Below, in pieces: positions 49,434 through 64,000 of a stretch of 64,000 nt of DNA. How positions within the stretch are numbered: position 1 is the first letter of the stretch; each line of letters opens with the position of its first letter. The translations under genes were made by a program, and so were the position numbers. Origin of the DNA: Pseudooceanicola nanhaiensis DSM 18065 (lineage in GTDB: Bacteria; Pseudomonadota; Alphaproteobacteria; Rhodobacterales; Rhodobacteraceae). The notes under the pieces were generated by a model. That model made no database searches, was not told the origin of the DNA, and saw nothing but the letters and a program-made list of their open reading frames with translations. The stretch lies in NCBI RefSeq assembly GCF_000688295.1, contig NZ_JHZF01000020.1:1-64000 (forward strand), written 5' to 3'.

Positions 49434-49636
49434 GCAAAAGGCCTTCCTGCCGGTCATTCGCGATGCCCTGATAATCACCGACGCACGGACGCCAGCAACC
49501 GGCTGCACTGCTGTGCCGAAGGCTTTTAAATAGGCGAAAGCGCCGAGCCGTGATGGTCTGGCCAAGACCGCTGGCATAGACCTTTGCATGAGCCGGCCCG
49601 CTGTGTTGCGTGGCCAGTCAGCAAAGGGGGAGGTCC

Positions 49637-50788
49637 ATGGTTCTCGACTATGACCAGGACGACGTGGCCTTTTGGGAAGAGGTACGCGATTGGCTCCAGA
49701 CCAATGCTCCGCGCGAGCGACGCCCCGAGGCCGGGCCGGAAATGCGCGCCTTTCTCCTGGCGTGGCAGCCGCGCCAGTACGATGGCGGATGGGCTGGCCT
49801 GGCCTGGCCGAAAGAGCCCGGCGGACAGGGCCTGTCGCTGATCTGGCACGAGGAATATGCCGCCGCAAAGGCCCCGCCCATCGGGTGTCTGTTCGTGGCG
49901 ATGAACCACGGTGGCCCCACGCTGATCGCTTGGGGAACGGACGCGCAGAAAGCGTTCCACCTCCCGAAGATCCTCAAGGGCGAGTCAGTCTGGTGCCAGG
50001 GCTTCTCGGAGCCGGGCGCGGGGTCGGACCTTGCCTCGATCTCCAGCCGTGCGGTGATCGACGGGGACGATCTGGTGGTGTCGGGCCAGAAGATCTGGAC
50101 CAGCTACGGCCATGTCGCCGACTATCAGGAACTGCTGGTCCGAACCTCTCGCGGCGAGAAGAAGCATGACGGACTGACATGGGTGATCTGCCCGATGGAC
50201 GCGCCCGGCATCGAGGTGCGCACGATCACCACGATTTCGGGCAGCCAGCACTTCTGCGAGATATTCTACGACAATGTCCGCATTCCCATGGCGAACGTGG
50301 TAGGCTAGGTTGACCGGGGATGGGAGACGGCGATGACCACTCTGTCGTTTGAACGCGGCGTGGGTCTGGCTGGCTGGCAGATCGAACTGGCCCGCAATGT
50401 CGAGATGCTGATCGAACTTGCCCGCACCACCCGACGCGGAAACCGGTGGGTCATCGACGATGACGAGATCGCCAGTCGCCTGGCCACCATCCGGGCCGAG
50501 GTCAAGGCCCTGCGCGCGATGACCTACATACTGGTGTCGAAAGTGGCGCGGGGCACTGCGGGGGCCGAGGGGACGGTTGTCGGCCTCCACTTCGCTGAAC
50601 TGGCCAAGCGCTTCCATCGCCTTTCGCTTGATGTGCTGGGACTCGATGCGATCGAGCGCCGGCCGGAGGAGGGGGACTGAACGACGCTCTTCCTCGAATG
50701 CTTCCGGCACGTGATCGCCGGGGGCACATCGCAAATTCGCCGCAACATCATCGGGGAGCGCCTGCTCGGTCTCCCAAGGAGCCGCTGA
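49637..50788 (+). pseudogene. Acyl-CoA dehydrogenase with amber and opal in-frame stops
   Basis: ATG 49637 follows GGGGGAGG: DDVAFWEEVRDWLQTNAPRE, LIWHEEYAAAKAPPIGCLFV, CQGFSEPGAGSDLASISSRA, VVSGQKIWTSYGHVADYQEL. TAG at 50306-50308 (codon 224) follows IPMANVVG; the frame goes on VDRGWETAMTTLSFERGVGL. TGA at 50678-50680 (codon 348) follows RRPEEGD; again the frame continues, RHVIAGGTSQIRRNIIGERL, to the original stop at 50788 (383 residues). The final motif GGTSQIRRNIIGERLLGLP confirms this ending. CAG or GAG to TAG and TGG to TGA are the simplest changes. It is divergent from the CoA-transferase and was followed by a partner subunit. Confidence 0.9.
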
Positions 50789-50789
50789 C

Positions 50790-51100
50790 ATGGTCGACCT
50801 GGTCCCGAACGAAGACGAACAGCAGGTGATCGACAGCATCGACGCCTGGCTAGCCGCCGAATTGCCGCTGGACCGGCTGCGCGTCCCGGGCGGCGCCATG
50901 ACCGAGGCCACCCGCTGGACCGAGATGGCCGACCTGGGTTGGTTCGCGCTCGGCATCCCGGAGGTCGTGGGCGGCGTCGGCCTGTCCGTGGTCGAGGAGA
51001 CGATGCTTCTGCGCGCGTGTGGACGAACTCTGACGATGCCATCGATGGTGGCGACCGTGCTGTCGGGCCACGTCGCCGCGCGGGCGCGGAAGAAGGATGT
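50790..51100 (+). pseudogene. Acyl-CoA dehydrogenase, N-terminal fragment cut near an IS3 element
   Basis: ATG 50790 follows AAGGAGCCGCTGAC. The text VDLVPNEDEQQVIDSIDAWL, RVPGGAMTEATRWTEMADLG, WFALGIPEVVGGVGLSVVEE, TMLLRACGRTLTMPSMVATV is the N-terminal domain of a dehydrogenase partner subunit. Homology ends after SGHVAAR near 51090, 80 bp before the IS3 element at 51170. The FAD and catalytic domains are absent. It would have been the second subunit next to the preceding gene. Confidence 0.82.
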
Positions 51101-51208
51101 CAACCGTCGGTAACGGACTCGCCTTAGTCAAGCGATTTTGCTCAATCAAATTGGGCCGCCAAGGCGGTTTGAACCGCGCCGGGTTTGCCGGAGGCTGGAT
51201 GGTTTGAG

Positions 51209-52114
51209 TCACGCCACCATAGCGAACTCGTCTGATTGTGCATAGAAGCGGGCTTCCGCTTCTGCGGGCGGGATGTTTCCGATGGGTTCGAGTAGGCGCC
51301 GGTTATTGAACCAATCCACCCATTCCAGCGTTGCGAACTCGACCGCCTCGAAGCTGCGCCATGGCCCGCGACGATGAATGACCTCGGCCTTGAAGAGCCC
51401 GATCACTGTCTCGGCGAGGGCATTGTCATAGGAATCCCCGACGCTGCCGACGGACGGCTCGATGCCCGCTTCGGCCAGTCGCTCGGTGTACTTGATCGAC
51501 ACGTACTGGCTGCCTCGGTCGCTGTGGTGGATGAGCCCGCCGCCATCGACGGGCCGCCGTTCGTGCAGAGCCTGTTCCAGAGCGTCGAGCACGAACTCAG
51601 CCTGCATGGAACGAGACACGCGCCAGCCGACGATCCGTCTGGCAAAGACATCGATAACCAAGGCCACGTAGACAAACCCACTCCAGGTCGCGACATAGGT
51701 GAAGTCGGACAGCCAGAGCATGTTCGGCGCCGGGGCATGGAACTCTCGGTTCACACGATCCTCAGGGCATGGCGCGGAGGGATCGGAAACCGTTGTTTTC
51801 CGGGCCTTTCCTCGGATCACTCCCGCCAGCCCCATGTCATTCATCAGGCGCGAGACCGTGCACCTGGCGACCGCGATCCCCTCACGGTTCAATTGCCGCC
51901 AGACCTTGCGGGCGCCGTAGACCTGGAAGTTCTCGTCCCAGACCCGCCGGATCTCCGGGCGCAGCTCGGCATCGCGCCAGGCGCGGTCGGACAGCTTTGC
52001 AGGATCGGCCCGGCCCGCGGCATGGGCGCGATAGGTGGACGGGGCGATCGGCAGCACACGGCAGATCGGCTCGATCCCATACTGGTCGCGATGCTCATCG
52101 ATGAACATCTTCAT
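51209..52114 (-). CDS. IS3-family transposase OrfB (integrase)
   Basis: A 301-residue DDE integrase: HTH_21-like N-terminal part ([60 protein letters not shown]), then catalytic Asp in [20 protein letters not shown], Asp in [20 protein letters not shown], and Glu in [20 protein letters not shown]. The end ([20 protein letters not shown]) matches the family. It is made as a fusion with OrfA by frameshifting; the two frames overlap by four bases (52111-52114). It appears functional. Confidence 0.9.
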
Positions 52115-52437
52115 TTCCTCGTAGGGCGGTCGAGCTCCGCCTGAGCGAAAAAAGCGGACGCCTTGCGGAGGATCTCGTTGGCCTGCCGGAGCTCCCGGTT
52201 TTCCTTCTCCAGCTGCTTGAGGCGCGCAAGCTGATCGCTGGTCGGCCCCGGGCGTTGCCCGTTGTCACGCTCCTCGCGTCGCACCCACTTCCGCAACGTC
52301 TCGGCCGTGCAGCCGATCTTTGGCGCAATCGAGCAGATCGCCGCCCACTGCGAAGCGTGATCGGCCTCATGTTCCAGAACCATACGCACCGCGCGAGCAC
52401 GCACCTCGGATGAATATCGATTGGATGTCTTCGTCAT
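52111..52437 (-). CDS. IS3-family transposase OrfA
   Basis: A 108-residue OrfA with a helix-turn-helix ([40 protein letters not shown]) and a coiled coil ([20 protein letters not shown]). It ends four bases inside OrfB, the usual arrangement for -1 frameshift fusion. A run of six T residues on the minus strand just before the end (AAAAAA at 52149-52154 on the plus strand) is close to where slippage may occur. Intact. Confidence 0.88.
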
Positions 52438-52559
52438 GGCTCCACCTTCTCAAGGTTGGGAGCCTCCGGCAAACCCGGCGCGGTTCATGGCGACAGCGCG
52501 GCGCTGATCTGACAAGTGGCAACGGCGGTGCGTGACGCAGGCCCCCGTTACAGCATCTC

Positions 52560-53403
52560 GTTCTCGGTTCATAGCCGGAATATGACGACGGCGGCGAGGG
52601 CGATGGCGGAGAGGAACACCTTCGGGCTTCTGTCGTAGCGGATGGCAACCCGTCGCCAGTCCTTGAGCCTGCCGAACATGTTCTCGATCCGGTTGCGGCG
52701 TTTGTAGCGACGCTTGTCGTAGCGGACGGGCTTGGCGCGAGACTTCCGGCCCGGGATGCACGCCCGCATCCCCTTGTCTTCCAACGCTTCTCGGAACCAG
52801 TCGGCGTTATAGCCCCGGTCGGCCAGCAGCCACTCTGCCGATTGCAGGCCACCCAGCAGGGCCGCCGCGCCGGTGTAGTCGCTGACCTGGCCCGCGGTCA
52901 TGAAGAAGCGGATCGGGCGTCCGTCGGCGTCGGCGACGGCATGCAGTTTGGTGTTCATGCCGCCCTTAGCTCGACCGATCAGCCGGCCGCGTTGGTCATC
53001 GGATCCCCATTTTTCGAACGCAGGCTGGTCGCCGTGCGGTGCGCCTTCAGGTAGGTCGCGTCGATCATCAGCGTCCTCGGAACAGCCGCCTCCGACGCCA
53101 GCCCATCCACTATCCGGGCAAAGATGCCCTTGTCGCTCCATCGCTTCCAACGGTTGTAGAGCGTCTTCGCTGGGCCTTAATCCTTCGGCGAATCACGCCA
53201 CCGCAAGCCGTTGCGATTGATGAAAATTATCCCGCTGAGAACACGTCGGTCATCAACCCGCGGCTTGCCACGGCTCTTGGGGAAGAAGGGCTGAAGCCGG
53301 GCCATCTGCGCGTCCGACAGCCAGAAAAGGTTGCTCATTGGTCAGTCTCCCTACGGAGCCTGAATCATGCCGCAAGCGCAAGATCATTGGGTCCTGACCC
53401 TAG
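52560..53403 (-). mobile_element. IS5-family element, decayed, inserted in an IS110 transposase
   Basis: A relative of the element at 1-847. The right repeat is clear (minus strand from 53403, CTAGGGTCAGGACCCAATGA), but the matching left repeat is not recognisable around 52500-52560. The right end cuts the IS110 gene. The 72 bases between this and the IS3 element hold nothing recognised. Confidence 0.8.
52569..53338 (-). pseudogene. IS5-family transposase with ochre stop
   Basis: ATG 53338 begins WLSDAQMARLQPFFPKSRGK and RVDDRRVLSGIIFINRNGLR. TAA at 53177-53179 stands where the intact relative has Tyr (RDAPKEYGPHKTL); the frame continues KTLYNRWKRWSDKGIFARIV and LMIDATYLKAHRTATSLRSK. As in the intact copy, the second half is in an overlapping frame (RGRLIGRAKGGMNTKLHAVA, LLADRGYNADWFREALEDKG, RNRIENMFGRLKDWRRVAIR) ending at 52569. 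The stop kills the frameshift product. Confidence 0.85.
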
Positions 53404-54158
53404 AGCGCTTCGCGGACCCTCCCCCTGCCGCCCCAAATGCGTCGCGATCCGCGCCAGGTTTCGCTTCCCTGCGCACGCGGCGCAAGGCCTGCGAGCGAGG
53501 CGATGCGCCGTCGATCCAGCCGACCGAGTTCCGGTAGCTCTCCAAGCAAGACGGCCAGGACTGTGGGGCCGATGCGGGGGACGGCGCGCAGGAGCGCGGC
53601 CTGCCGTTCAAGGCCGGGATCGCTCGCGATGAGGTCGGCGATGGTCCTGTCCATCGTCTCGACACGCCGGTCCAGGATTCGGATCATCCGGTCGATCTCC
53701 GCCCGGATATCGGCGCTGCCTGCATTCTGGCGGCGGATCTTTTCCGCCTTGCGCATCTCGACCAGCTGCCTGCGGCGGCGGAGCAGGTCGCTCAGCCGGA
53801 CCCGGGCCGGGGACCGGGGAACGGTCGGCGTCAGGTCCAGCTTCTCCCCCATCTGGGCAAGGATTCGGGCATCGACGCGATCGGTCTTGGCCTGCACGCC
53901 GATCGCCCGGGTGAACTCTCGGGCCTGCCGGGGATTGACGCGCGCGTAGGCGAGGCCGCGCCTGGAGAGGGTGGCGATGAGAGGCCCGTCGCATCCGCTG
54001 GTTGCTTCAAAGACGACCAGCGCGTCCTCCGGCAGAGAGGTGGCCCATCGGATGATCGCGTCCGGCGTGTTCTTGATCCTCGCTGTGGCGCCGGACGGAA
54101 GGGAATGGGTATCGATCCAGCCACGGGCGAGGTCGCAGCCGATGAAGGTCTGTGGCAT
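53400..54158 (-). pseudogene. IS110-family transposase truncated by the IS5 element
   Basis: A DEDD transposase of the IS110 family: Asp near residue 9 (FIGCDLARGWIDTHSLPSG), Glu near 51 (ALVVFEATSGCDGPLIATLS), Asp residues near 93 and 96 (QAKTDRVDARILAQMGEKL), and the C-terminal domain with LRAVPRIGPTVLAVLLGELP and RRIASLAGLAPRAQGSETWR. Text stops at GRVREAL, about 60-80 residues short, exactly where the IS5 repeat begins. Start ATG 54158. The missing end is not seen on the other side of the IS5 copy. Confidence 0.86.
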
Positions 54159-54333: not shown

Positions 54334-55995
54334 TCAGGCGTCGGTGCCGGTCCCCAGCTTCTTGTATAGGTAGGAGCGGGACACCCCGAGATGCTCGGCC
54401 GCCTTCTTCTTGTTGCCCTTGAACCGGATCACCGCGTCGTGGATCAGATGCAGCTCGAGGTCCTCCAGCGCGTCCTTGAGCGAGCCGCCGCCGCTGGTCG
54501 AGAAGGAGGTCGCCCGCTCCGTATCCGGCGCAGTGTCGTCGCCGGGTCCGGACTCGAAATCCTCGAGCTTCAGCTTGCTGCCTTCCGCGAAGACGAAGGC
54601 GCGTTCGACCACGTGGCGCAATTGGCGGACGTTGCCGGGCCAGGACCGCTCCATTAGGTGATGGGCGATCTCCATCTCGACCTCCGGCACGTCGCGGCCA
54701 TACTGGGCGGCAAGCTCGGCCACGAAGTGGTTCAGCAGCAGCGGGATATCCTCGCGGCGCTGGTCCAGCGGCGGGATCTGGATGGTGACCGGGCTGATCC
54801 GGTAATAGAGGTCCAGCCGGAACTTCTCCTGCTCGACAAAGGCCTCCAGATCGCGGTTCGTGGCGCTGCAGAGCCTGAAATCCACCCGCTTGGGCTTGTC
54901 GCCGCCGACCCGTTCGACGATCCGGTCCTGCAGAACCCGCAACAGTTTTGTCTGCACCTCGAGCGGCATGTCCCCGATCTCGTCCAGAAAGATCGTGCCC
55001 TTGTCGGCCTGTTCGAACTTGCCCACGCGGCCCTTGCGGTCGGCGCCGGTGAACGAGCCGGCCTCGTAGCCGAACAGTTCGCTTTCCACGAGCGAGACGG
55101 GCAGGGCGGCGGCGTTGACCGTCACCATCCGCTGGTCCTTGCGAGAGCTCAGCTGATGCAACGCCTGCGCGACCAGTTCCTTGCCGGTGCCGCTTTCGCC
55201 CTGGATCAGGACGGGGATGTCGAGCGGGGCGATCTTGCGGATCTGGTCCCTGAGCGACCGCATGGCGAGGCTGTTGCCGATGATCGCGTCCAGGAAATCG
55301 ACCGGCCCGCTTTCCTTGGTCTTGCGGGCGTTCGACTTGTAGGTCTCGATCTGCCCTTCCAGATCGCTGATCTTGCGCGCCATCGCCTCCAACTGCTGGG
55401 GGCCCTTGAACATCACCCGACCGATGGCGCCGACGATCTTCTTGCCGTGGCGGATCGGGTAGCGCGACACGACGCGGTCGACGCCCTTCATCCGCTGGAC
55501 CTGCCCAACCTCGGCGACGCCGGTCTTCAGCGTCAGGTGCAGGCGCGTGTTCTCGATCACGTCGCGCACCGGCTTGCCGACACCGCCGCCCGGTTCGAGG
55601 CCGAAGAACTTTTCATGGACGGGCGAGATATAGGCCATCTTGGCGTTCGCATCGACGATGGTCATTGCGTCGTAGGGATCGTTCAGGATGTGGTTCAGGA
55701 TGTCATAGGCGAAATCCACGCGCATCACGAACTGCAGGACAGTGTCCGCGGGCGGCGAAGAAATCAGGACGACATACCCGGCGGGATAGGGTGAAACGAA
55801 CCCGACGAACCGGGCGTCGTTCAGCAGGATCGGCACGAAACGGCGTTCGGCGGCATCCTCCAGCCATTCGGAGTCGGAAATGATCGCACGGATTCGGACA
55901 TCTTCGGCCGCGCCGGAGGCGAGCAGGCATTTCCCTTTGTTATCAGTGACAAGGACGCCCTTTATCCCGGTGTCTTCACCGCTTTCGGCACTCAT
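54334..55995 (-). CDS. PAS-type sigma54 enhancer-binding activator (AAA+, Fis HTH)
   Basis: A 553-residue activator. The N-terminal 95 residues are an unnamed sensor, followed by a PAS domain at about 100-200 ([56 protein letters not shown]), a short coiled linker, then the AAA+ domain: Walker A GESGTGKE at 266-273, sigma54-contact loop GSFTGA at 313-318 (usual GAFTGA with Ser), Walker [11 protein letters not shown] at 333-342, and [19 protein letters not shown] near 470. The C-terminus is a Fis-type helix ([20 protein letters not shown]). Start ATG 55995 follows GGGAGGGTTGC. It is divergent from rpoN and surely governs the -24/-12 promoters nearby. The signal is unknown; no receiver domain, so no phosphorelay partner is implied. 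Confidence 0.93.
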
Positions 55996-56040
55996 GCAAC
56001 CCTCCCATGGCGACACATTCTCCAATCGCCGACATTAGGT

Positions 56041-56066
56041 GTGTCCTTGACATGGACACTTGTCAA
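56041..56066. promoter_or_regulatory. Inverted repeats: candidate upstream activating site
   Basis: Two overlapping inverted repeats: GTGTCC-TTGACAT-GGACAC (56041-56059) and TTGACA-N8-TGTCAA (56047-56066); a further TGTCC follows at 56074. They lie about 65-90 bp before the -24 element of rpoN and 46-71 bp before the divergent activator start, the usual place for an enhancer-binding protein. Binding is inferred. Confidence 0.5.
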
Positions 56067-56130
56067 TCAAACCTGTCCACAAAGTAGCTTGATGCGTGAC
56101 CTCAATAAATGCAAAGGTGCGACTCGGTGT

Positions 56131-56147
56131 TTGGCATGTCTATTGCT
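56131..56147 (+). promoter_or_regulatory. Sigma54 promoter (-24/-12) of rpoN
   Basis: TTGGCATGTCTATTGCT has GG at 56133-56134 and GC at 56145-56146, spaced by ten bases, and matches the TGGCAYG-N4-TTGC consensus. It leaves a leader of about 105 bp to the ATG at 56264. This predicts that the sigma factor drives its own gene, with help of the divergent activator. Confidence 0.82.
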
Positions 56148-56263
56148 TTCAAGGGCACCAACCGGTCGAGGAGGGGCGGCGCTTTGAAATGCGCGGCCTG
56201 ACCGGAGCACCCCGAAAGGGGATGGCCCGCACAAAGCCGGGTCGGGGAAGAAGGGGGGAAGAC

Positions 56264-57679
56264 ATGGAACTCAGGCCGAACCAGTTTCAGCAGCAACGGC
56301 AGTCGCTGTCGATCACCGGGCAGGTGATCCAGTCGATCCGGCTGCTGCAATACGGCAACCACGAACTCGAGGAATTCCTGCGCGAACAGGCGGACGACAA
56401 CCCGTTGATAAAGGTCGTCGGCGGCGCGTCGGACATGCCCGCGAAAAGCGAGGCGGCGCGCGGTGTCGAGAACAATCGCCAGTCCTGCCCGAACGCCGCG
56501 CTGCGGCTGCCGATCTCTGGCGCAGGCGACGATATGCCGGGGCCGGACCAGTATATCGAGGCGCGCGTCTCGCTGCGGGATCACCTGATCGCACAGGTCG
56601 ACCTGATGCTGGACGCGCCCGTCGATCGCCTGATCGCGCGCGAGATCGTCGAGTCGCTGGACGCCGACGGATACCTGCGCCGCGACACGGAGATCATGGC
56701 GGATCTGCTGGGTGTGCCTGCGGACCGGTTCGATGCCGTCCTGCGCACCGTGCAGTCCTGCGAGCCGACCGGCGTCGCCGCGCGCGATCTGGCCGAGTGC
56801 CTGTCGCTCCAGCTTGCGGAACGTGACCGCCTGACAGCCCCGATGCGCGCGCTGCTCGGCAATCTCGGGCTGCTCGGCGACTACAAGATCGACGCGCTGG
56901 CCCGTGTCTGCGGCGTGGATGCTGCAGGCGTCATGGAACTGGCCCGCCAGATCCGCGAACTCGATCCCCGTCCGGGCCTGCAATTCGATGCCGAACCGGT
57001 CGTGATGGCCCTGCCGGACATTCACGTCGAGATGGCCGAGGACGGCACGCTGAGCGTCGCGCTGAACACGGATGTCATGCCGCGCGTGCTGATCGACCGG
57101 GAATATCACGCCCGGATCAGCGCCCGCATCGACGGCACGGCCGAGCAGCGCTTCATGATCGACTCCATGCGCAACGCGAACTGGCTGGCGCGCAATATCG
57201 ACCAGCGGGCGCAGACGATCCTGCGGGTCGCGACCGAGATCGTGACGAAGCAGAGCGACTTCTTCCGCTACGGCGCGGGCAGCCTGAAGCCGCTGTCGCT
57301 CAAGGACATCGCGGCCGAGGTCGATCTGCATGAATCCACCGTGTGTCGCGCCGTCGCGGACAAATACATGATGACCCCGCGCGGCATGTTCGAGCTGAAG
57401 TTCTTCTTCACCAACGCGCTCGGCGTGGTGGATGGCGACGACATGCTGTCCGTCGAAACCGTCCGCCATCGCATCCGGCAACTGGTGGAGGCAGAAAAGC
57501 CCACCGACATCCTGTCGGATCAGGCGATCATGGACACGCTGAGGTCCGAAGGCATCGACATCGCGCGGCGGACCGTCGCGAAATACCGCGAGATGATGGA
57601 CATTCCGACCTCGCGGAAACGCAAGCGGCTCAAGGCTCCGTTGCCTCTGGCCCGTGGTGTCCTGGCGGCGGCGGAGTGA
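56264..57679 (+). CDS. rpoN: RNA polymerase sigma54 factor (RpoN)
   Basis: A 471-residue sigma54. N-terminal Gln-rich activator region (RPNQFQQQRQSLSITGQVIQ, SIRLLQYGNHELEEFLREQA), a linker, the core-binding domain (LDADGYLRRDTEIMADLLGV, PTGVAARDLAECLSLQLAER), the HTH (LKDIAAEVDLHESTVCRAVA) and the RpoN box near the end (ARRTVAKYREMMDIPTSRKR). ATG 56264 follows AAGGGGGGAAG; the open frame upstream adds residues unlike the family and would run over the promoter. It is unlikely to be the housekeeping copy: it lacks the usual lptB/hpf/ptsN neighbours, is transcribed from a -24/-12 promoter, and sits between its activator and a catabolic operon. Whether a second rpoN exists elsewhere cannot be seen. 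Confidence 0.93.
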   Translation: MELRPNQFQQQRQSLSITGQVIQSIRLLQYGNHELEEFLREQADDNPLIKVVGGASDMPAKSEAARGVENNRQSCPNAALRLPISGAGDDMPGPDQYIEARVSLRDHLIAQVDLMLDAPVDRLIAREIVESLDADGYLRRDTEIMADLLGVPADRFDAVLRTVQSCEPTGVAARDLAECLSLQLAERDRLTAPMRALLGNLGLLGDYKIDALARVCGVDAAGVMELARQIRELDPRPGLQFDAEPVVMALPDIHVEMAEDGTLSVALNTDVMPRVLIDREYHARISARIDGTAEQRFMIDSMRNANWLARNIDQRAQTILRVATEIVTKQSDFFRYGAGSLKPLSLKDIAAEVDLHESTVCRAVADKYMMTPRGMFELKFFFTNALGVVDGDDMLSVETVRHRIRQLVEAEKPTDILSDQAIMDTLRSEGIDIARRTVAKYREMMDIPTSRKRKRLKAPLPLARGVLAAAE

Positions 57680-57749
57680 AGTGGCGCGCCTGCGCGGGGT
57701 ACTGCCGGTCCGGGGAATCCCTCCACCTGTAAAGTCGTGGCGCCGCATT

Positions 57750-57767
57750 TTGGCACGGGCATTGCAT
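57750..57767 (+). promoter_or_regulatory. Sigma54 promoter (-24/-12) of the catabolic operon
   Basis: TTGGCACGGGCATTGCAT is almost perfect consensus: GG at 57752-57753, GC at 57764-57765, ten bases apart. The first gene starts about 35-45 bp later. There is no other promoter-like element before 64000, so all six genes are probably read from here. Confidence 0.9.
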
Positions 57768-57800
57768 CTGTAGTTCGGTGACAGACAAGAGATGTGGGCC

Positions 57801-59033
57801 ATGACAAACCAGCCAAGTGCAGAGCAGCAGCAATCGACCGGATTGCCCTATGAAACCCTGCCGATCGTGGAGTCGGGACAGACCTTCGGCTTTCTGAACG
57901 GCGTCCGTGTCCTCGACCTGACGACGTCGGTCGCCGGTCCCTATGCGACGATGCTGTTGTCCGATTTCGGGGCCGAGATCATCAAGGTCGAACGCCCTGC
58001 CGGTGACGATGCCCGCGCCTGGGGCCCGCCGTTCCTGCACGGGCAGGCGCTGTGGTTCGCTGCGGTGAACCGCAACAAGCGCAGTGTCGTGATCGATGCA
58101 CAGACCGAACAGGGCCGCGCCGACCTGCTGGCGCTGGTGCGGACCGCCGACGTGGTCGTGACGAACCAGCCGCCGTCGGTGCAGAAGAAGCTGGGCCTCG
58201 ACTACGACACGCTGAAGCAGGAGCGCGAGGGCCTGATCTTTGTCGCCATCACCGGCTTCGGACTTGAAGGCGAGCGGGCGAACCTGACCTGCTACGACCT
58301 GATCGCCGAGGGCTATTCCGGGATCATGGACATCACCGGCCCCGCCGGGGCCGAGCCGCAGAAGATCGGCGCTCCGGCGGCGGACATGCTGGCCGGTCAG
58401 GACGCGGCGATGGCGACGATGGCCGCACTGGCCGGACGTCACCAGAACGGCGGGCAGGGCCAGTGCATCGACGTCAGCCTTGTCGAGAGCATGACCCGCT
58501 TCCTGTCGTGCCGGATTTCCCCCTACCTCGGCGCGGGCGAGATCCCCGAGCGGACGGGCGGGCGCGACAGCGTCATCGCGATCTACCAGCCGTTCGAGAC
58601 GGCGGATCATCCGATCACGCTGGGCCTCGGGTCCGATGCGATCTGGAGCCGGTTCTGGAAAGCGCTCGGCGATCCCGAATTCGCGGCCCGCGAGGACTTC
58701 CGCAGCAACGCCGACCGCCGCGAGAACCGCGTCGAGATCGTCGAGCGGATCCAGTCGCTGCTGCTCAAGGAAACCCGCGCGCACTGGCTGGACGTCTTCC
58801 GCGACGCCCGCGTGCCCGCCGGGCCGATCAACCGCGTGGACGAGGTCGCCGCGGACGAACATCTGCGGGCGCGCGATCTTTTCTATGCAGTCGAGGACGA
58901 TGAGGGCAGGATCCTGCCGCAGATCGGTCTTGGCATCCGCATCAACGGGCAGGCCAGCACCGCGCGCCTCGCCCCGCCGCGTCTCGGCGCGGACACGCAG
59001 GCGATCCTGCGCGATCTCAAACCGTCCGAGTGA
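57801..59033 (+). CDS. CaiB/BaiF CoA-transferase of the sigma54 operon
   Basis: A 410-residue class III CoA-transferase: GVRVLDLTTSVAGPYATMLL, SDFGAEIIKVERPAGDDARA, NRNKRSVVIDAQTEQGRADL, presumed catalytic Asp near residue 195 (APAADMLAGQDAAMATMAAL), GQGQCIDVSLVESMTRFLSC. ATG 57801 has AAGAG nine bases upstream and is preferred to ATG 57792, where AAGAG would be too close. It is the first gene after the -24/-12 promoter. It could exchange CoA between the substrate acid and a late product such as a dicarboxylyl-CoA, complementing the ligase two genes on. The gene is undamaged, like all genes of this cluster. Confidence 0.9.
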   Translation: MTNQPSAEQQQSTGLPYETLPIVESGQTFGFLNGVRVLDLTTSVAGPYATMLLSDFGAEIIKVERPAGDDARAWGPPFLHGQALWFAAVNRNKRSVVIDAQTEQGRADLLALVRTADVVVTNQPPSVQKKLGLDYDTLKQEREGLIFVAITGFGLEGERANLTCYDLIAEGYSGIMDITGPAGAEPQKIGAPAADMLAGQDAAMATMAALAGRHQNGGQGQCIDVSLVESMTRFLSCRISPYLGAGEIPERTGGRDSVIAIYQPFETADHPITLGLGSDAIWSRFWKALGDPEFAAREDFRSNADRRENRVEIVERIQSLLLKETRAHWLDVFRDARVPAGPINRVDEVAADEHLRARDLFYAVEDDEGRILPQIGLGIRINGQASTARLAPPRLGADTQAILRDLKPSE

Positions 59034-59068
59034 CGGGTCCCGAACAGAACATGAAGGAAGGACAAGAC

Positions 59069-59848
59069 ATGGCTTTCAAGGAAATCATTTATCAGGAAGA
59101 CGGCCCGATCGGGACCATCACGATGAACCGCCCGGACGACGGCAACATGTTCACCGAGACGATGTGCCACGAGATCCGCGACTGCATCGAGGGCATCCGC
59201 CGCGAGACGCGGACCCGTGTCGTCGTGCTGACCGGCGCGGGCGACCGGTTCTTCTGCATCGGCGGATCCAAGGACGGGATGGAAAAGACCAAGCTCTATG
59301 CCGGCACCCTGCCGACGCTGGAGATGTACGAGGCCATCGACAAGCTGCAGAAGCCGGTGATCGCCAGCGTGAACGGCTTTGCCGTCGGCGGCGGCAACGT
59401 GCTGCAGATGGTCTGCGACGTCACCATCGCCAAGGAATCCGCGATCTTCCGTCAGGTCGGTCCGATGATGGGTTCGTTCGATGCGGGCTATGGCACGTGG
59501 TATCTCGAAGACCTGGTCGGCAAGAAGAAGGCCAAGGAGATGTGGTACGCGAACCCCAAGCTGACCGCGGCGCAGGCGATGGAGATCGGCCTGATCAACC
59601 GTGTCGCCCCGGATGCGGAACTGGCCGAAAAGACCAAGGAGTTCGCACTGGAGATCGCGGATCGCGGTGCCTTCGCGCTTGCCTCGATCAAGGGTGCGTT
59701 CAACGCCCGTCACGGCGGCGTCGGCGGCCTGTCCCGCGTGACCCACGACCTGCTGCTCAGCCAGTATCTGGGCACCGAGGAATCGAAGGAGCTCAAGGAG
59801 AGCTTCGCCGGGCGGCGCCAGCCGGATGCGACCAAGTTCGGGCACTGA
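59069..59848 (+). CDS. BadI/MenB-type ring-cleaving beta-ketoacyl-CoA hydrolase
   Basis: A 259-residue crotonase that matches BadI (2-ketocyclohexanecarboxyl-CoA hydrolase) and MenB rather than hydratases: GAGDRFFCIGGSKDG for the oxyanion hole, SVNGFAVGGGNVLQMVCDVT without the hydratase Glu, then FRQVGPMMGSFDAGYGTWYL, where GSFD-GYG is the BadI/MenB signature with its catalytic Asp, and KKKAKEMWYANPKLTAAQAM. BadI opens the cyclohexanone ring by a reverse Dieckmann reaction, giving pimelyl-CoA. Start ATG 59069 follows GGAAGGACAAG. It lies 35 bp after the CoA-transferase. A MenB role is unlikely, as no other menaquinone gene is near. Confidence 0.85.
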   Translation: MAFKEIIYQEDGPIGTITMNRPDDGNMFTETMCHEIRDCIEGIRRETRTRVVVLTGAGDRFFCIGGSKDGMEKTKLYAGTLPTLEMYEAIDKLQKPVIASVNGFAVGGGNVLQMVCDVTIAKESAIFRQVGPMMGSFDAGYGTWYLEDLVGKKKAKEMWYANPKLTAAQAMEIGLINRVAPDAELAEKTKEFALEIADRGAFALASIKGAFNARHGGVGGLSRVTHDLLLSQYLGTEESKELKESFAGRRQPDATKFGH

Positions 59849-59857
59849 GGCGGACAC

Positions 59858-61477
59858 ATGAAACCATTCCTCACGCTTCATGATCCCCAGACGGCACGAG
59901 AGTTCTACGCCCGCGGGCTGTGGAAGGACGACACGTTCTATTCGCTGATGAACGATCACGCGGACCGTCGCCCCGACGATATCGCGCTGGTGGACGGGCT
60001 GACCTCGCTGCCGTGGTGTGCCTTGAAGGCGAGGGTGGACGCCATGGCCGACAGCCTGCTGTCGCAGGGTATCGGCGCCGGCGACCGTGTGGCGATCTGG
60101 ATGTCGAACAGGATCGAGGCGGTGATCACCTTCCTCGCCTGCTCGCGGGAGGGGATTGCCTGCAATCCCTCCCTCCACCGTACCTACACCTGCGGCGAGA
60201 TCGTCGAACTGCTGACCGAACTGTCGGCCAGCGCGCTGGTGACCGAGGACGGCTGGGGCGCGGATCGTGATACGGTCGACCTTTACGAACTGCTGAAGGA
60301 CCTGCCGTTCCTCAAGAAGGTCTACACGCCCGATACCTTCCCGCAGTACATCACCGGCGTCGACCGGACGCCGCATTCGAACCCGGACAGCGTCGTCTAC
60401 CTCGCCTTCACCTCGGGCACGACGGGCAAGCCCAAGTGCGTCATGCACTCGTGCAACACGCTGCTGTCCAACGCCCGCGACCTCGCGCGGGACTGGGCGC
60501 TGTCGGAACAGACGGTGCTGCTGACGCTCAGCCCGCTGTCGCACCACATCGCCTGGGTGGCCTGCGGGCAATGGCTGGTCTCGGGCGGCCGCTTCGTCAC
60601 CGATCATCCGCCCGAGGGCATGGACCGGCTGGCGTGGATCGTGGAATCCGGCGCGACCTACGTGCTGGGCGTGCCGACCCACGCGATGGACATCCTCGCC
60701 GAACAGAAGCGGCAGGGCATGGAACGGCTGGGACAGGTCCAGACCTTTTACATGGCAGGCTCCGCGATCCCCGAGGTCGTGGCGCAGGCCTTCGTGGATC
60801 AGGGGATCACGCCGCAGAACATCTACGGCATGACCGAATGCTCGTCGCACCAGTACACCCATCCCAGCGACCCCAAGGAGGTCTGGATCCAGACCTGCGG
60901 ACGGGGCGGACCGGCCTACGAGGTCAAGATCTGGGATCCGGCGAACCCGGACGTGGAACTGCCGCGCGGCCAGACCGGCAACATCGGCGGGCGCGGCGCG
61001 GCGATGATGCTGGGCTATTTCGCCAACCAGGCCGCGACCGAGAAGACGATGAACCGGCACGGCTACCTGCTGTCCGGCGACCTCGGATCGTTCGACATCA
61101 ACGGCAACCTGCGGATCGAGGGGCGGATCAAGGACGTCATCATCCGCGGCGGCCACAACATCAATCCCTCGCGGATCGAGTCCCTGACGCTTGAACACAA
61201 GCGGGTCGAGAAGGCGGCCGTCTTCGGCCTGCCCGACGACCGGCTGGGCGAAAAGGTCTGCCTTGCGGTCATCGGCGATGTCTCGCCCGAGGAGATGCTG
61301 GCGCATCTCGCCCGTGAAGGCCTGTCGAAATACGACATGCCGGAATGGTTCCTCGATGTGCGGGCGATGCCCCTCACCGCCAGCGGCAAAATCCTGAAAC
61401 GCGAAATGATCGACATGGTGGGGCGCGGCGAACTGAGCCCGCTGCCGGTCCGCTACAAGATGGCGAGGGCGGAGTAA
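59858..61477 (+). CDS. AMP-forming acyl-CoA ligase
   Basis: A 539-residue adenylate-forming ligase with all core motifs: P-loop VYLAFTSGTTGKPKCVMHSC near 184-203, LLTLSPLSHHIAWVACGQWL, IYGMTECSSHQYTHPSDPKE (A5), GYLLSGDLGSFDINGNLRIE (A7), GRIKDVIIRGGHNINPSRIE (A8) and the catalytic Lys in LTASGKILKREMIDMVG (A10). In R. palustris the corresponding step is AliA, cyclohexanecarboxylate-CoA ligase; I propose the same role by context. It is part of a tight operon with gaps below 40 bp. The exact acid cannot be read from the motifs. Confidence 0.9.
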   Translation: MKPFLTLHDPQTAREFYARGLWKDDTFYSLMNDHADRRPDDIALVDGLTSLPWCALKARVDAMADSLLSQGIGAGDRVAIWMSNRIEAVITFLACSREGIACNPSLHRTYTCGEIVELLTELSASALVTEDGWGADRDTVDLYELLKDLPFLKKVYTPDTFPQYITGVDRTPHSNPDSVVYLAFTSGTTGKPKCVMHSCNTLLSNARDLARDWALSEQTVLLTLSPLSHHIAWVACGQWLVSGGRFVTDHPPEGMDRLAWIVESGATYVLGVPTHAMDILAEQKRQGMERLGQVQTFYMAGSAIPEVVAQAFVDQGITPQNIYGMTECSSHQYTHPSDPKEVWIQTCGRGGPAYEVKIWDPANPDVELPRGQTGNIGGRGAAMMLGYFANQAATEKTMNRHGYLLSGDLGSFDINGNLRIEGRIKDVIIRGGHNINPSRIESLTLEHKRVEKAAVFGLPDDRLGEKVCLAVIGDVSPEEMLAHLAREGLSKYDMPEWFLDVRAMPLTASGKILKREMIDMVGRGELSPLPVRYKMARAE

Positions 61478-61480
61478 CCA

Positions 61481-62251
61481 ATGCCTGTAGAACTGAAGAA
61501 GGACGGCGATTTCGCCGTCCTCACCCTCAATCGTCCCGAGGCACTGAACGCGCTGTCGTTCTCGATCCTCGGTGACATCGGCCGCGCGTTGGACGAGGTC
61601 GCGGCGATGAAGGACATCCGCGCGCTGCTGGTCACCGGCGCGGGCGACAAGGCGTTCTGCGCCGGCGCGGACATCAAAGAACTGCGCAACCGCCCGCTGA
61701 TCGACCAGAAGCGCGGGGCCGAACTGGGCCAGTCGGTCTTTGCCAAGCTCGGCACCCTGCCGGTCGCTTCGGTGGCACTGGTCAACGGCTATGCCTTCGG
61801 CGGCGGGTCGGAACTGGCGCTGGCCTGCACCTTCCGGCTGGCCTCGCCGAACGCGATCTTCGGCCTGCCCGAGATCAAGCTGGGCCTGATCCCCGGCTAC
61901 GGAGGCACGCAGCGCCTGCCGCGTCTGGTGGGCGAGGGCCGCGCGCTTGAGATCATCATGACCGGCCGCAACGTGAAGGCCGACGAGGCCGAGCGCATCG
62001 GGCTGGTGAACGCGGTGGTCGAGGGCGACCTGATGCAAGCGGGCCGCGACTTCGCGGGCAAGTTCACCCGCTACAGCCTGCCGGTGCTGGAATTCGCGCG
62101 CCGCGCGGTCCAGCGGGCGGGCGACGTCACGCTTGAGGAAGGGCTGCGGATCGAGGCCGACCTGTCGACGCTCGCCTATCGCACGGCGGATGCCGAGGAA
62201 GGCATGGCCGCCTTCGAAGAGAAACGCAAAGCGGAGTTCAGGGATGGCTGA
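61481..62251 (+). CDS. Enoyl-CoA hydratase, canonical (BadK-like role)
   Basis: A 256-residue hydratase with both catalytic Glu: LVNGYAFGGGSELALACTFR and FGLPEIKLGLIPGYGGTQRL, and the oxyanion segment TGAGDKAFCAGADIKELRNR. So it is a genuine hydratase, unlike several crotonases elsewhere in the window. In the Ali/Bad route the matching enzyme BadK hydrates cyclohex-1-ene-1-carboxyl-CoA. The start is three bases after the ligase stop, and the end overlaps the next start by eight bases. Confidence 0.9.
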   Translation: MPVELKKDGDFAVLTLNRPEALNALSFSILGDIGRALDEVAAMKDIRALLVTGAGDKAFCAGADIKELRNRPLIDQKRGAELGQSVFAKLGTLPVASVALVNGYAFGGGSELALACTFRLASPNAIFGLPEIKLGLIPGYGGTQRLPRLVGEGRALEIIMTGRNVKADEAERIGLVNAVVEGDLMQAGRDFAGKFTRYSLPVLEFARRAVQRAGDVTLEEGLRIEADLSTLAYRTADAEEGMAAFEEKRKAEFRDG

Positions 62252-62948
62252 AGGACAGATCATCGTGACCGGCGCCTCCAAGGGCATCGGCGCCGCCATC
62301 GCGACGGAACTGGACGGGCGCGGCTTTGACGTCGTTTGCCTGTCGCGCAGCGGCACCGCGCCCAAGGGGCACGGCATCGCCTGCGACATGACCGACGAAG
62401 CCGCGGTGCGTGACGCCATGGCCGAGGTCGCGAAACGCGGGCCCGTCGCGGGGCTGGTCAACAACGCGGGCGTCCACATCGCCGGGCCGATCGCGACGCT
62501 CGACACAAGGGACTTCGACCGGACGATGGCGCTGAACGCGACCGCCGTGATGGTCGCCGCGCGCGAAGTCTATCCGCACCTGAAGGCGGCGGGCGGGATC
62601 ATCGTCAACATCGGGTCCTTCTTCGACCGGATGGGCGTGCCCGACAACCTGTCCTACTGCGCCTCCAAGGCCGCCGTCGCCGCGATGACGCGCTGCATGG
62701 CGGTGGAATGGGCGCGCGACGGAATCCGGGTGATGAACGTCGCGCCGGGCTATATCGAAACCGACCTGAACCGCGACTACCTCGCGCGGGAAAAGGTCAA
62801 GGCGTGGATGGCGCAGCGCATCCCGACCGGCGGCGCCGGATCGGTGGATGACGTCGCCCGGCTGGTGACCGCCATCTTCGCCGAGAACATCGGCTACCTG
62901 ACCGGCGAAACGATCTACGTCGACGGGGCTCAGGGGATCAATCACTGA
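62244..62948 (+). CDS. SDR dehydrogenase (BadH-like role)
   Basis: A 234-residue SDR with the cofactor motif TGASKGIGAAIATELDGRGF at 9-28, NNAG at 73-76, catalytic Ser 125, Tyr 138 and Lys 142 (IVNIGSFFDRMGV, NLSYCASKAAVAAMTR), and C-terminal YLTGETIYVDGAQGINH. ATG 62244 follows GGAG and overlaps the hydratase end; its stop overlaps the next ATG. By position it would oxidise the 2-hydroxy group made by the hydratase to the 2-keto compound that the BadI-like enzyme cleaves. The exact substrate is inferred only from context. Confidence 0.88.
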   Translation: MAEGQIIVTGASKGIGAAIATELDGRGFDVVCLSRSGTAPKGHGIACDMTDEAAVRDAMAEVAKRGPVAGLVNNAGVHIAGPIATLDTRDFDRTMALNATAVMVAAREVYPHLKAAGGIIVNIGSFFDRMGVPDNLSYCASKAAVAAMTRCMAVEWARDGIRVMNVAPGYIETDLNRDYLAREKVKAWMAQRIPTGGAGSVDDVARLVTAIFAENIGYLTGETIYVDGAQGINH

Positions 62949-64000
62949 TGAACATGTACGACAAGCTGCAACGTTCCAGGTCCTGGAGCGACGAGGAACG
63001 TGCGATCCTCGATCAGGTCCAGCGGATGACGGACGAGGTCATCGCGCCGAACGCCGAACATATCGACGCGACCGGCGAATTCCCGTGGAAGAACGTCGAG
63101 GCTATCAACGCGCTTGGCCTGAACGCGGTCTTCGTGCCCGAGGCCTATGGCGGGATGCCGATGTCCTTCCGCCTGTACCTGGAGATCGTGGCGATCATAT
63201 CCGAGGCCTGCGCCTCGACCGGCATCATCTACGCCACGAACTACCACGGGATGAAGCCGCTGATCGAATACGGCTCGGAAGAGCAGAAGGCCCGCCTGCT
63301 GCCCTGCATCGCCGAAGGCGGGCTGGGTGCGCTGGCGATCACCGAACCGACCGCCGGGTCGGACGCGACGGGGATGAAGACCAGCTTCACCCCCGATGGC
63401 GACGACATCATCCTGAAGGGCAACAAGGTGTTCATCTCGAACGGCGACGTGGCGGACCGCTATCTCGTGTTCGGGAAATGGGCGGGCGTCGACGATCCGA
63501 AAAAGGCGATCTCGGCCCTGATCCTCGAAAAGGGGGCCGAGGGCTTCAGCGTCATCGGCAAGGAAAAGAAGATGGGCCACAACGGCTCGTCCACCTGCGC
63601 GCTGTCGTTCGACAATGTCCGCGTGCCCCGCGCCAACCTGCTGATGGAACCGGGCGACGGGCTGAAGATCCTTCTCGGCTCGCTCAACCGGTCCCGCCCC
63701 TCTGTCGCGGCACATGCGCTCGGCATCGCCCGCGCGGCGTTCAAGGACATGGTCGCCTACGGCAATGACCGGGTGCAGAGCCGCAAGAAGGTTCTGGAGT
63801 TCCAGGGCAACCAGTTCACGCTGGCCGACCTCGCAGGTGAGCTGCTGATGGTCGAGACATGGCTCGACTACGTCGCGGGCCTCGTCGACGGGGGCGAGCC
63901 CGATTTCGGCATGGAGGCCTCGATGGCCAAGCTGCGCGCCTCGGACCTCGCCATGAAGATGGCGACCGAGTGTGTCCAGTTCCACGGCGGCTATGGCTAC
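62948..64000 (+). CDS. Acyl-CoA dehydrogenase (AliB-like role), continues past the window
   Basis: The first 351 residues of a dehydrogenase: SDEERAILDQVQRMTDEVIA, LGLNAVFVPEAYGGMPMSFR, GALAITEPTAGSDATGMKTS, ILKGNKVFISNGDVADRYLV, NRSRPSVAAHALGIARAAFK, and ECVQFHGGYGY at the window edge, just before the expected FAD-binding tail. Its ATG overlaps the SDR stop (TGATG). In the proposed route it oxidises the ring-carboxyl-CoA to the 1-ene before hydration. No damage is seen. The rest of the gene and further operon members lie beyond 64000. Confidence 0.9.
   Translation, partial: MNMYDKLQRSRSWSDEERAILDQVQRMTDEVIAPNAEHIDATGEFPWKNVEAINALGLNAVFVPEAYGGMPMSFRLYLEIVAIISEACASTGIIYATNYHGMKPLIEYGSEEQKARLLPCIAEGGLGALAITEPTAGSDATGMKTSFTPDGDDIILKGNKVFISNGDVADRYLVFGKWAGVDDPKKAISALILEKGAEGFSVIGKEKKMGHNGSSTCALSFDNVRVPRANLLMEPGDGLKILLGSLNRSRPSVAAHALGIARAAFKDMVAYGNDRVQSRKKVLEFQGNQFTLADLAGELLMVETWLDYVAGLVDGGEPDFGMEASMAKLRASDLAMKMATECVQFHGGYGY

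Follow-up and report, generated by a model that had tools for sequence, protein, structure and literature searches.

A putative mobile ring-acid-CoA catabolic island with a probable private sigma54-activator pair in Pseudooceanicola nanhaiensis

Results

The locus and its main operon

The DNA analyzed here, called the window throughout, comprises 64,000 nucleotides of Pseudooceanicola nanhaiensis DSM 18065 (bases 1-64000 of the 103-kb contig NZ_JHZF01000020.1; genome size 4.66 Mb). At its right end, a gene for sigma54 (rpoN) lies between the gene of a sigma54-dependent activator and an operon of acyl-CoA-converting enzymes, which starts with a family III CoA-transferase (CaiB1) and a crotonase-type ring hydrolase (RH; Table 1). 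The enzyme genes, the -24/-12 promoter, rpoN and the PAS activator had been described in an earlier sequence-only reading and were confirmed, the genes by profile matches and the promoter by a perfect pattern match at 57751-57766. At the sequence level, there are one sigma54 gene, one sigma54-competent activator, a palindrome at the activator start that is also found in relatives, and -24/-12 matches that precede several of the island operons and, with one mismatch, rpoN. These features make a private sigma54 regulon highly likely, and it appears fairly likely that the locus as a whole encodes a mobile pathway for ring-acid-CoA esters, with a private sigma54-activator pair and an enzyme set apart from that of the bad-ali clusters for cyclohexanecarboxylate degradation.

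The main operon comprises ten genes (contig 57792-69179), of which those beyond the window end are separated from their neighbors by a few bases or overlap with them, and past 69179 more operons with sigma54-type sites follow, including two tripartite ATP-independent periplasmic (TRAP) transporters. The self-contained operon of six adjacent intact genes that had been described before was therefore an artefact of the window end: all six enzyme classes are present, but the acyl-CoA dehydrogenase (ACAD) is truncated there, so that only five of the six genes are complete inside the window. The starts of rpoN, the activator and the short-chain dehydrogenase/reductase (SDR) were read from the translations and are graded as likely. 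The solved structures that score best with CaiB1 include formyl-CoA and succinate-hydroxymethylglutarate CoA-transferases.

Table 1. Features of the sigma54-associated island; window and contig share positions 1-64000, and higher positions refer to the contig
Feature	Position	Strand	Evidence and remarks
Sigma54-dependent activator (bacterial enhancer-binding protein, bEBP)	54334-56025	-	PAS, AAA+ with GSFTGA loop, Fis-type helix-turn-helix; Pfam PF00989, PF00158, PF02954; likely start ATG 55995
Palindrome TGTCC-N7-GGACA, candidate activator-binding site (upstream activating sequence)	56042-56058		Sole perfect match in the window
rpoN (sigma54)	56096-57679	+	Likely start ATG 56264 (MELRPNQ...), 471 aa; RpoN box ARRTVAKYR
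Sigma54 -24/-12 site, one mismatch	56132-56147	+	132 bp upstream of the likely rpoN start; autoregulation candidate
Sigma54 -24/-12 site, perfect match TGGCACGGGCATTGCA	57751-57766	+	41 bp upstream of CaiB1
CaiB1, family III CoA-transferase	57792-59033	+	PF02515, 378.9 bits
Ring hydrolase (RH), MenB/BadI-type crotonase	59069-59848	+	Tree; active-site positions
AMP-forming acyl-CoA ligase	59858-61477	+	PF00501, PF13193; under AliA cut-off
Enoyl-CoA hydratase (ECH)	61481-62251	+	PF00378
SDR dehydrogenase	62244-62948	+	PF13561, PF00106; likely start ATG 62244; 8-base overlap with hydratase end
Acyl-CoA dehydrogenase (ACAD)	62948-64000, continuing to contig 64114 (stop)	+	PF02771, PF02770, PF00441; 388 aa
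3-Hydroxyacyl-CoA dehydrogenase HAD1	Ends at 65613
CaiB2	65617-66750
PIG3-like quinone-oxidoreductase-type reductase (QOR)	66747-67739
3-Hydroxyacyl-CoA dehydrogenase HAD2	67746-69179
Sigma54 site, perfect match	69297		Before CaiB3
CaiB3 and TRAP transporter	To 73673
Sigma54 site, one mismatch	73791		Before second TRAP set
Second TRAP transporter and CaiB4	To 78204		Followed by a further acyl-CoA gene set
Sigma54 site, perfect match	78354		Before an enoyl-CoA hydratase gene

One sigma54 gene, one competent activator and their candidate sites

The rpoN product reaches 385.9 bits with the NCBIfam model TIGR02395 (cut-off 277.35), contains the activator-interacting, core-binding and DNA-binding domains together with the RpoN box, and is encoded by a single-copy gene. 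The genome has 12 matches to PF00158, the sigma54-activator domain, and the GxFTGA loop is found only in the activator next to rpoN, so that the two agree with one part of the definition of a private RpoN-bEBP pair, namely, a competent activator adjoining rpoN and no second such activator found among the 12 matches. NtrC-family proteins encoded on G000:C11 (L003, L004, L005 and L007) are devoid of the GxFTGA loop, and the genus is mostly devoid of rpoN, which would fit activators that have become independent of sigma54.

The promoter search used the pattern TGGCACGNNNNTTGCW, built from the -24/-12 consensus. The whole genome contains three perfect matches, all of which are located inside the 38.7-kb island (chance under even scatter about 6e-7), and 23 matches with at most one mismatch, five of which are in the island (about 1e-6; positions in Table 1); the pattern read backwards yields 25. 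In the window taken by itself, two sites with no or one mismatch compare with 0.52 expected, a number that was reached in 9 of 100 shuffles and is thus mildly unusual. In related genomes, the perfect matches fall within the island in five of five cases in G018 (in a 28-kb stretch, before CaiB1, CaiB3, the hydratase, a gene recognized by eye as TctA-like and a TctC gene assigned by Pfam), in three of three cases in G290 (before rpoN, CaiB1 and the hydratase), and in one of three cases in G303, which has three rpoN genes, while G004 has two of six in front of rpoN and CaiB1. The perfect site 41 bp upstream of CaiB1 is shared by G018, G004 and G290. In a set of 89 loci (including three duplicates, L195, L196 and L197, which are the contigs of L116, L113 and L099), TGGCAC-N5-TTGC occurs 109 times, 54 of them not upstream of a tracked gene, versus a single occurrence of the reversed pattern. 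It is present at most 300 bp upstream of the operon in 34 of the 77 named loci with a readable start region (of 80), compared with 1.5% of 360-bp pieces drawn at random from these loci.

The palindrome TGTCC-N7-GGACA (0.04 perfect matches expected in the window) is situated between the activator gene and rpoN, 90 bp upstream of the site at 56132. The 89 loci, 41 of which have an activator with more than 40% identity, contain 19 perfect matches, and 11 of these (10 distinct contigs, since L196 is the same contig as L113) are at most 35 bp from the projected activator start, on contigs of Hoeflea, Roseovarius, Stappia, Bradyrhizobium, Afipia and others. In five loci (L131, L135, L159, L162 and L174), the palindrome is 143-145 bp upstream of a TGGCAC-N5-TTGC site.

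The rpoN gene of the island in the genus, the family and beyond

Among 22 genomes of the genus, four have rpoN and 18 are without it. An RH with at least 93% identity is present in three of the 22 (this genome, G004 and G018), all of them rpoN carriers, and in all three the activator, rpoN and CaiB1 are side by side in the same order. A fourth genome (G012) contains an RH relative of 39% identity only. The fourth rpoN carrier, G007, has an rpoN of another group that adjoins NifA, NifV, NifS and NifU, which might represent another private sigma54-activator pair, dedicated to nitrogen fixation; molybdate-transport-like genes were also seen by eye near that rpoN (L047, G007:C4:524001-544000). In the family survey (394 genomes), RH with at least 85% identity was found in four genomes, each with rpoN on the same contig; 127 of the 394 genomes have rpoN, and the trees include only some of these.

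In a tree of 58 rpoN genes, that of the window and 11 module-adjacent ones form one clade (12/12, support 100/100), and the 46 others are outside. The clade members near the module belong to Rhodobacterales, Chelativorans, Brucella sp., Falsochrobactrum and Stappia, and thus to Rhodobacterales and Rhizobiales. The 46 were kept from 55 other loci offered; L026-L028 and L082 were dropped as copies of module rows, and L077 and L080 as copies of other rows. A stop within the aligned region excluded L035, L075 and L083 and, of the 12 module loci, L106. A second tree, from which 18 of the other rows were omitted and to which 16 loci were added (with L270 and L273 falling out for a stop and L279 as a copy of L109), recovered the module clade with 17 rows (100/100). 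It is joined by the rpoN genes of two Celeribacter, Mangrovicoccus, Roseovarius pacificus and Martelella, which are located elsewhere in those genomes. The second rpoN genes of Chelativorans, Brucella, Falsochrobactrum and Martelella cluster separately, in a group of the housekeeping type. Among the Burkholderiales and Bradyrhizobium carriers, only Cupriavidus (L139), Paraburkholderia (L133) and Bradyrhizobium (L135) were searched for rpoN; five genes were found and four of them placed (one of P. xenovorans was not), none in the module clade.

It could be argued that this rpoN is the general sigma54 of the host, lying beside a catabolic operon by chance, as it is the sole rpoN of the genome. 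However, 18 of the 22 genomes of the genus are without rpoN, no second GxFTGA activator exists among the PF00158 matches and no perfect promoter match outside the island, and the carriers Chelativorans, Brucella sp. 21LCYQ03 and Falsochrobactrum each possess an additional rpoN from a different group, so that a chance neighborhood is very improbable. The suspicion that the term "dedicated rpoN" is an overstatement was likewise dropped, because the single rpoN, the one GxFTGA activator and the perfect promoters are all in the island; together with the similar arrangement in the relatives, these features strongly support, as far as sequence can, the earlier proposal of sigma54 control by an own sigma gene.

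RH forms a third clade next to those of MenB and BadI

The sequence-only reading had proposed to place the protein encoded at 59069-59848 in a tree against BadI and MenB. It lies inside the MenB/BadI superclade (100/98 versus six other crotonase rows) but outside the rows of both BadI, including the BadI-type proteins, and MenB, a result that neither clearly refutes the proposed kinship nor bears it out in full. The RH proteins form a third clade of their own (24/24 rows, 100/100). RH scores 203.9 bits with the badI model TIGR03210 (cut-off 467.6) and 208.0 bits with the MenB model TIGR01929 (cut-off 342.7); on the basis of the score under the cut-off and the separate clade, an assignment of RH as MenB was rejected. 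Other menaquinone enzymes beside RH were not supported either, the ligase reaching 196.6 bits versus a menE cut-off of 330.15.

RH carries the signature QxGPxxGSxDxG of the superclade. Seven residues of the active-site region of MenB (Q154, G156, P157, G160, S161, D163 and G165, Escherichia coli numbering) are retained in 24 of 24 RH rows, while four of the six other crotonases have Glu at the signature position Gly156. This conservation suggests C-C chemistry of the same kind. Two more well-supported pairs of Rhodobacteraceae proteins were seen near BadI (L055, L059, L065 and L067); they are not RH, and no ligase directly adjoins the hydrolase.

The pathway enzymes belong to the classes of bad-ali but form a separate set

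The enzymes of the operon had been equated with the cyclohexanecarboxylate pathway of Rhodopseudomonas palustris. The enzyme classes are indeed the same, but the scores with the curated badI, AliA and AliB models are less than half of the cut-offs: the ligase reaches 224.3 bits with AliA (TIGR03208, cut-off 792.3) and the ACAD 115.0 bits with AliB (TIGR03207, cut-off 575.35; 350 of 388 aa used as query), indicating that RH, ligase and ACAD are not the counterparts of the bad-ali enzymes. BadH (TIGR03206, cut-off 431.2) is absent among the best 25 of 214 families for the SDR, the top score of which is 146.0. As a control, a bad-ali cluster of the same family (G068) exceeds all three cut-offs (badI 501.0, AliA 820.1, AliB 590.1); its BadH, at 384.3, is itself under the cut-off, and a divergent MarR gene is present. 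No MarR-type badR adjoins the operon of the window, the adjoining regulators being the sigma54 activator and RpoN. The identities to enzymes of BadI-linked stretches are 39-42% for RH, 28-30% for the ligase, 27-29% for the ACAD and 26-31% for the SDR (based on the seven of 11 BadI-type stretches with ligase and ACAD nearby, five of which also have the SDR beside it).

One might still assume a genuine bad-ali pathway in which the MarR repressor has been exchanged for sigma54 control, since the same five enzyme classes are adjacent, RH is kin of BadI and MenB, and divergence could mask orthology. The straight bad-ali pathway was rejected on the basis of the model scores far under three cut-offs, the low identities and the control cluster that passes all three models; in addition, Gram-negative bad-ali clusters are described with badR (PMC9795900). 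A rewired bad-ali pathway is thus improbable, and plain cyclohexanecarboxylate is equally doubtful as the main substrate. Judged from sequence, the island would instead contain a separate set of enzymes of the same classes that works alike; as the substrate, an alicyclic acid carrying an additional substituent or double bond is probable.

The transporters give no single answer about the substrate, as they differ among relatives (LIV-type ATP-binding cassette transporters, TRAP and TctC). A type II 3-dehydroquinate dehydratase is encoded near the module on pRK1-1 of Cupriavidus basilensis (L178, 14512-14982), and two more loci contain relatives of it, which may point to hydroxylated cyclohexane acids. 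CaiB1 had been suggested to provide a second, ATP-free way of loading CoA; intramolecular CoA transfer appears at least as likely. The latter reaction is described for ThnP, IaaL and Mct (PMC11659651).

Spread of the module and borders of the island

A scan of named genomes retrieved 80 loci (the best of 240) with RH identities of 77-100%, which span Roseobacters, Burkholderiales, Bradyrhizobium, Sphingomonadales and Gammaproteobacteria, and thus Alpha-, Beta- and Gammaproteobacteria. In Oceanicola sp. 22II-s10i (L098), the identities of its copies of the genes amount to 95-100%. In the 50 loci with full flanks, RH has as neighbors the ligase (47), the hydratase (46), ACAD (46), HAD1 (45), SDR (44), CaiB2 (37), CaiB1 (35), the activator (27), QOR (26), HAD2 (16) and rpoN (11), all numbers being lower bounds because the flanks end at 10 kb. 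RH relatives are also present in 17 plasmid records, five of them from Actinobacteria with 52% identity. On pROB02 of Rhodococcus opacus B4 (L182), the sole Actinobacteria plasmid examined, the 52% relative adjoins 3-hydroxyacyl-CoA dehydrogenases and CoA-transferases, with an IclR-type gene nearby; no sigma54 activator is among the genes listed up to a distance of 18 kb. RH chemistry may thus exist in Actinobacteria without sigma54.

The approximately 40-kb island is flanked by insertion-sequence genes (window 51209-54158 and contig 93981-98582, the latter being L041 13981-18582; an integrase core was assigned by Pfam for 51209-52114 and a Mutator-type transposase by Pfam at the right side, the remainder by eye). 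The locus is probably the left part of a catabolic island that was acquired by Pseudooceanicola, a member of the Roseobacter group. To the left of the insertion sequences, at 49610-51113, are two short ACAD frames (232 and 107 aa) that represent N-terminal parts; the 232-aa frame is similar to the N-terminal half of the model for the large subunit of pimeloyl-CoA dehydrogenase (154.3 bits, cut-off 623.85). By eye, inverted repeats can be seen 3' of 69179 and of 73673; hairpin terminators between the operons were rejected, as the scan found no excess (8 versus 7.5 expected) and lists none at these two positions. A plasmid search with window positions 1-25000 yielded 263 records, none of which covers 80%, and the ten listed are mostly insertion sequences.

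Discussion

The favored reading of the island is that of a mobile ring-acid-CoA pathway with a sigma54-activator pair of its own. In such a scheme, the PAS activator would sense a ring carboxylic acid or its CoA ester, bind to TGTCC-N7-GGACA and drive RNA polymerase containing the sigma54 of the module, with positive feedback on rpoN via the site at 56132, and the ten-gene operon as well as the transporter operons would be switched on. The ring acid would be taken up (by TRAP transporters in this genome) and activated with CoA by the ligase, the ring would be dehydrogenated by the ACAD, hydrated by the ECH and oxidized by the SDR or HAD1, and RH would then open it hydrolytically in a retro-Claisen reaction, as BadI does. 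The dicarboxyl-CoA product would be processed by CoA shuffling by the CaiB transferases and by beta-oxidation involving HAD1, HAD2 and others.

It should be noted that several observations weigh against this reading. On the regulatory side, rpoN (more than 35% identity) is found in only 11 of the 50 module loci with full flanks and no activator is within reach in 23 of them, and therefore a module-borne rpoN seems to be a trait of a sub-lineage. Tianweitania (L101) has the module and the activator, and its single rpoN is of the housekeeping-type group; in Bradyrhizobium mercantei, the rpoN-like gene located some 2 kb away from the module activator (L135, 1166-2173) is divergent (28%) and falls outside the clade, on a long branch; and the module-adjacent rpoN of Tropicibacter (L106) contains a stop within the aligned region. 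A distance of 1.7 kb, which includes rpoN, separates the palindrome from the promoter at 57751, a weak point, and no perfect copy of it was found beside the other promoters of the island. In addition, 18 of the 23 genomic matches with at most one mismatch fall outside the island, the remaining four of the six perfect matches of G004 are on other contigs, G317 has no perfect match (its CaiB1 site ends with TTGCG), and seven congeners devoid of rpoN have three perfect matches in total.

On the enzymatic side, RH joins MenB rather than BadI (91/95), although the tree tool flagged this join as possibly being two long branches that meet. The position of Lys158 is occupied by Met in 23 of 24 RH rows versus Lys in all 26 BadI-type and MenB rows, R91 and Y97 of MenB are not retained, with Thr or Ser in place of Tyr97, and in the three RH rows examined a Tyr like MenB Tyr258 occurs one residue earlier. 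These features would also fit a pathway that is controlled by sigma54 but does not open an alicyclic ring, but instead serves branched or aromatic-derived dicarboxylic acids, with RH catalyzing another MenB-type C-C reaction, for example, a condensation or the cleavage of a beta-oxoacyl-CoA that is acyclic or branched. The four CaiB-type transferases and the di/tricarboxylate-type transporters (TRAP here, TctC in G018) are in line with such chemistry. However, the combination of ligase, ACAD, ECH, SDR and hydrolase is that expected for a ring opened once the position adjacent to the carboxyl group has been oxidized, and for acyclic substrates an ordinary thiolase would be expected to suffice. 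Therefore, this alternative is unlikely, if less so than a rewired bad-ali pathway, and ring opening by RH is regarded, on its sequence features, as probable.

The island shares with the bad-ali clusters of R. palustris and Aromatoleum sp. CIB (PMC9795900) the clustering of ligase, ACAD, hydratase, SDR and a BadI-like hydrolase. These clusters are reported to have MarR regulators in Gram-negative and TetR regulators in Gram-positive bacteria (PMC9795900). The island differs in its enzyme families, as defined by curated models and identity, in having sigma54 and an activator instead of the MarR repressor BadR, and in the additional CaiB transferases, two 3-hydroxyacyl-CoA dehydrogenases and a reductase. 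The MenB proteins (1,4-dihydroxy-2-naphthoyl-CoA synthases) possibly form the sister clade of RH; in contrast to MenB, RH is encoded in a catabolic operon. The thn cluster for anaerobic naphthalene degradation is similar in that ring-dicarboxyl-CoA intermediates, acyl-CoA dehydrogenases and a CoA-transferase are combined in one operon, but ThnP is a family I transferase and CaiB1 belongs to family III, and the thn genes are from an anaerobic sulfate-reducing culture (PMC11659651).

Private sigma54-activator pairs are already known. In the related bacterium Cereibacter (Rhodobacter) sphaeroides, each sigma54 paralog cooperates with one specific activator in the control of a gene set, the pairs being RpoN1-NifA, RpoN2-FleQ and RpoN3-AprX (PMC11999139), and species with several rpoN genes have been described (PMC3162934 and PMC12316311). 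The pairs of C. sphaeroides serve nif genes, flagella and a regulator, whereas the present module is catabolic and holds sigma54, activator and targets together, and, unlike those pairs, it is found both in hosts without any other sigma54 and in hosts with a sigma54 of their own. In the open-licence part of PubMed Central (titles and beginnings of abstracts; subscription papers are not covered), no report was found of sigma54 control of an alicyclic-acid pathway, of a module-bound rpoN, of a sigma54 clade of a mobile catabolic module or of the third hydrolase clade. Within this scope, the apparently module-tied sigma54 clade and the third hydrolase clade are unreported.

A further-reaching possibility, which is tentative and less likely than not, is that a distinct sigma54 lineage has become part of a mobile catabolic module, so that sigma54, the activator, the palindrome and the promoters move as one unit between orders and provide hosts that are devoid of sigma54 with a complete private channel for a new ring-opening pathway centered on the third MenB/BadI-type hydrolase. 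The substrate may in that case be a substituted alicyclic polycarboxylate, a type of compound that abounds in marine dissolved organic matter and is little understood.

Sigma54 is usually regarded as a host-wide regulator. A sigma54 clade tied to a single catabolic module would show that a pathway can be transferred together with an entire transcription channel. A natural set of one sigma54, one competent activator and few promoters would be useful for studies of the mechanism as well as for engineering, and the conserved, uncharacterized RH would mark a widespread ring-acid pathway that is open to direct testing.

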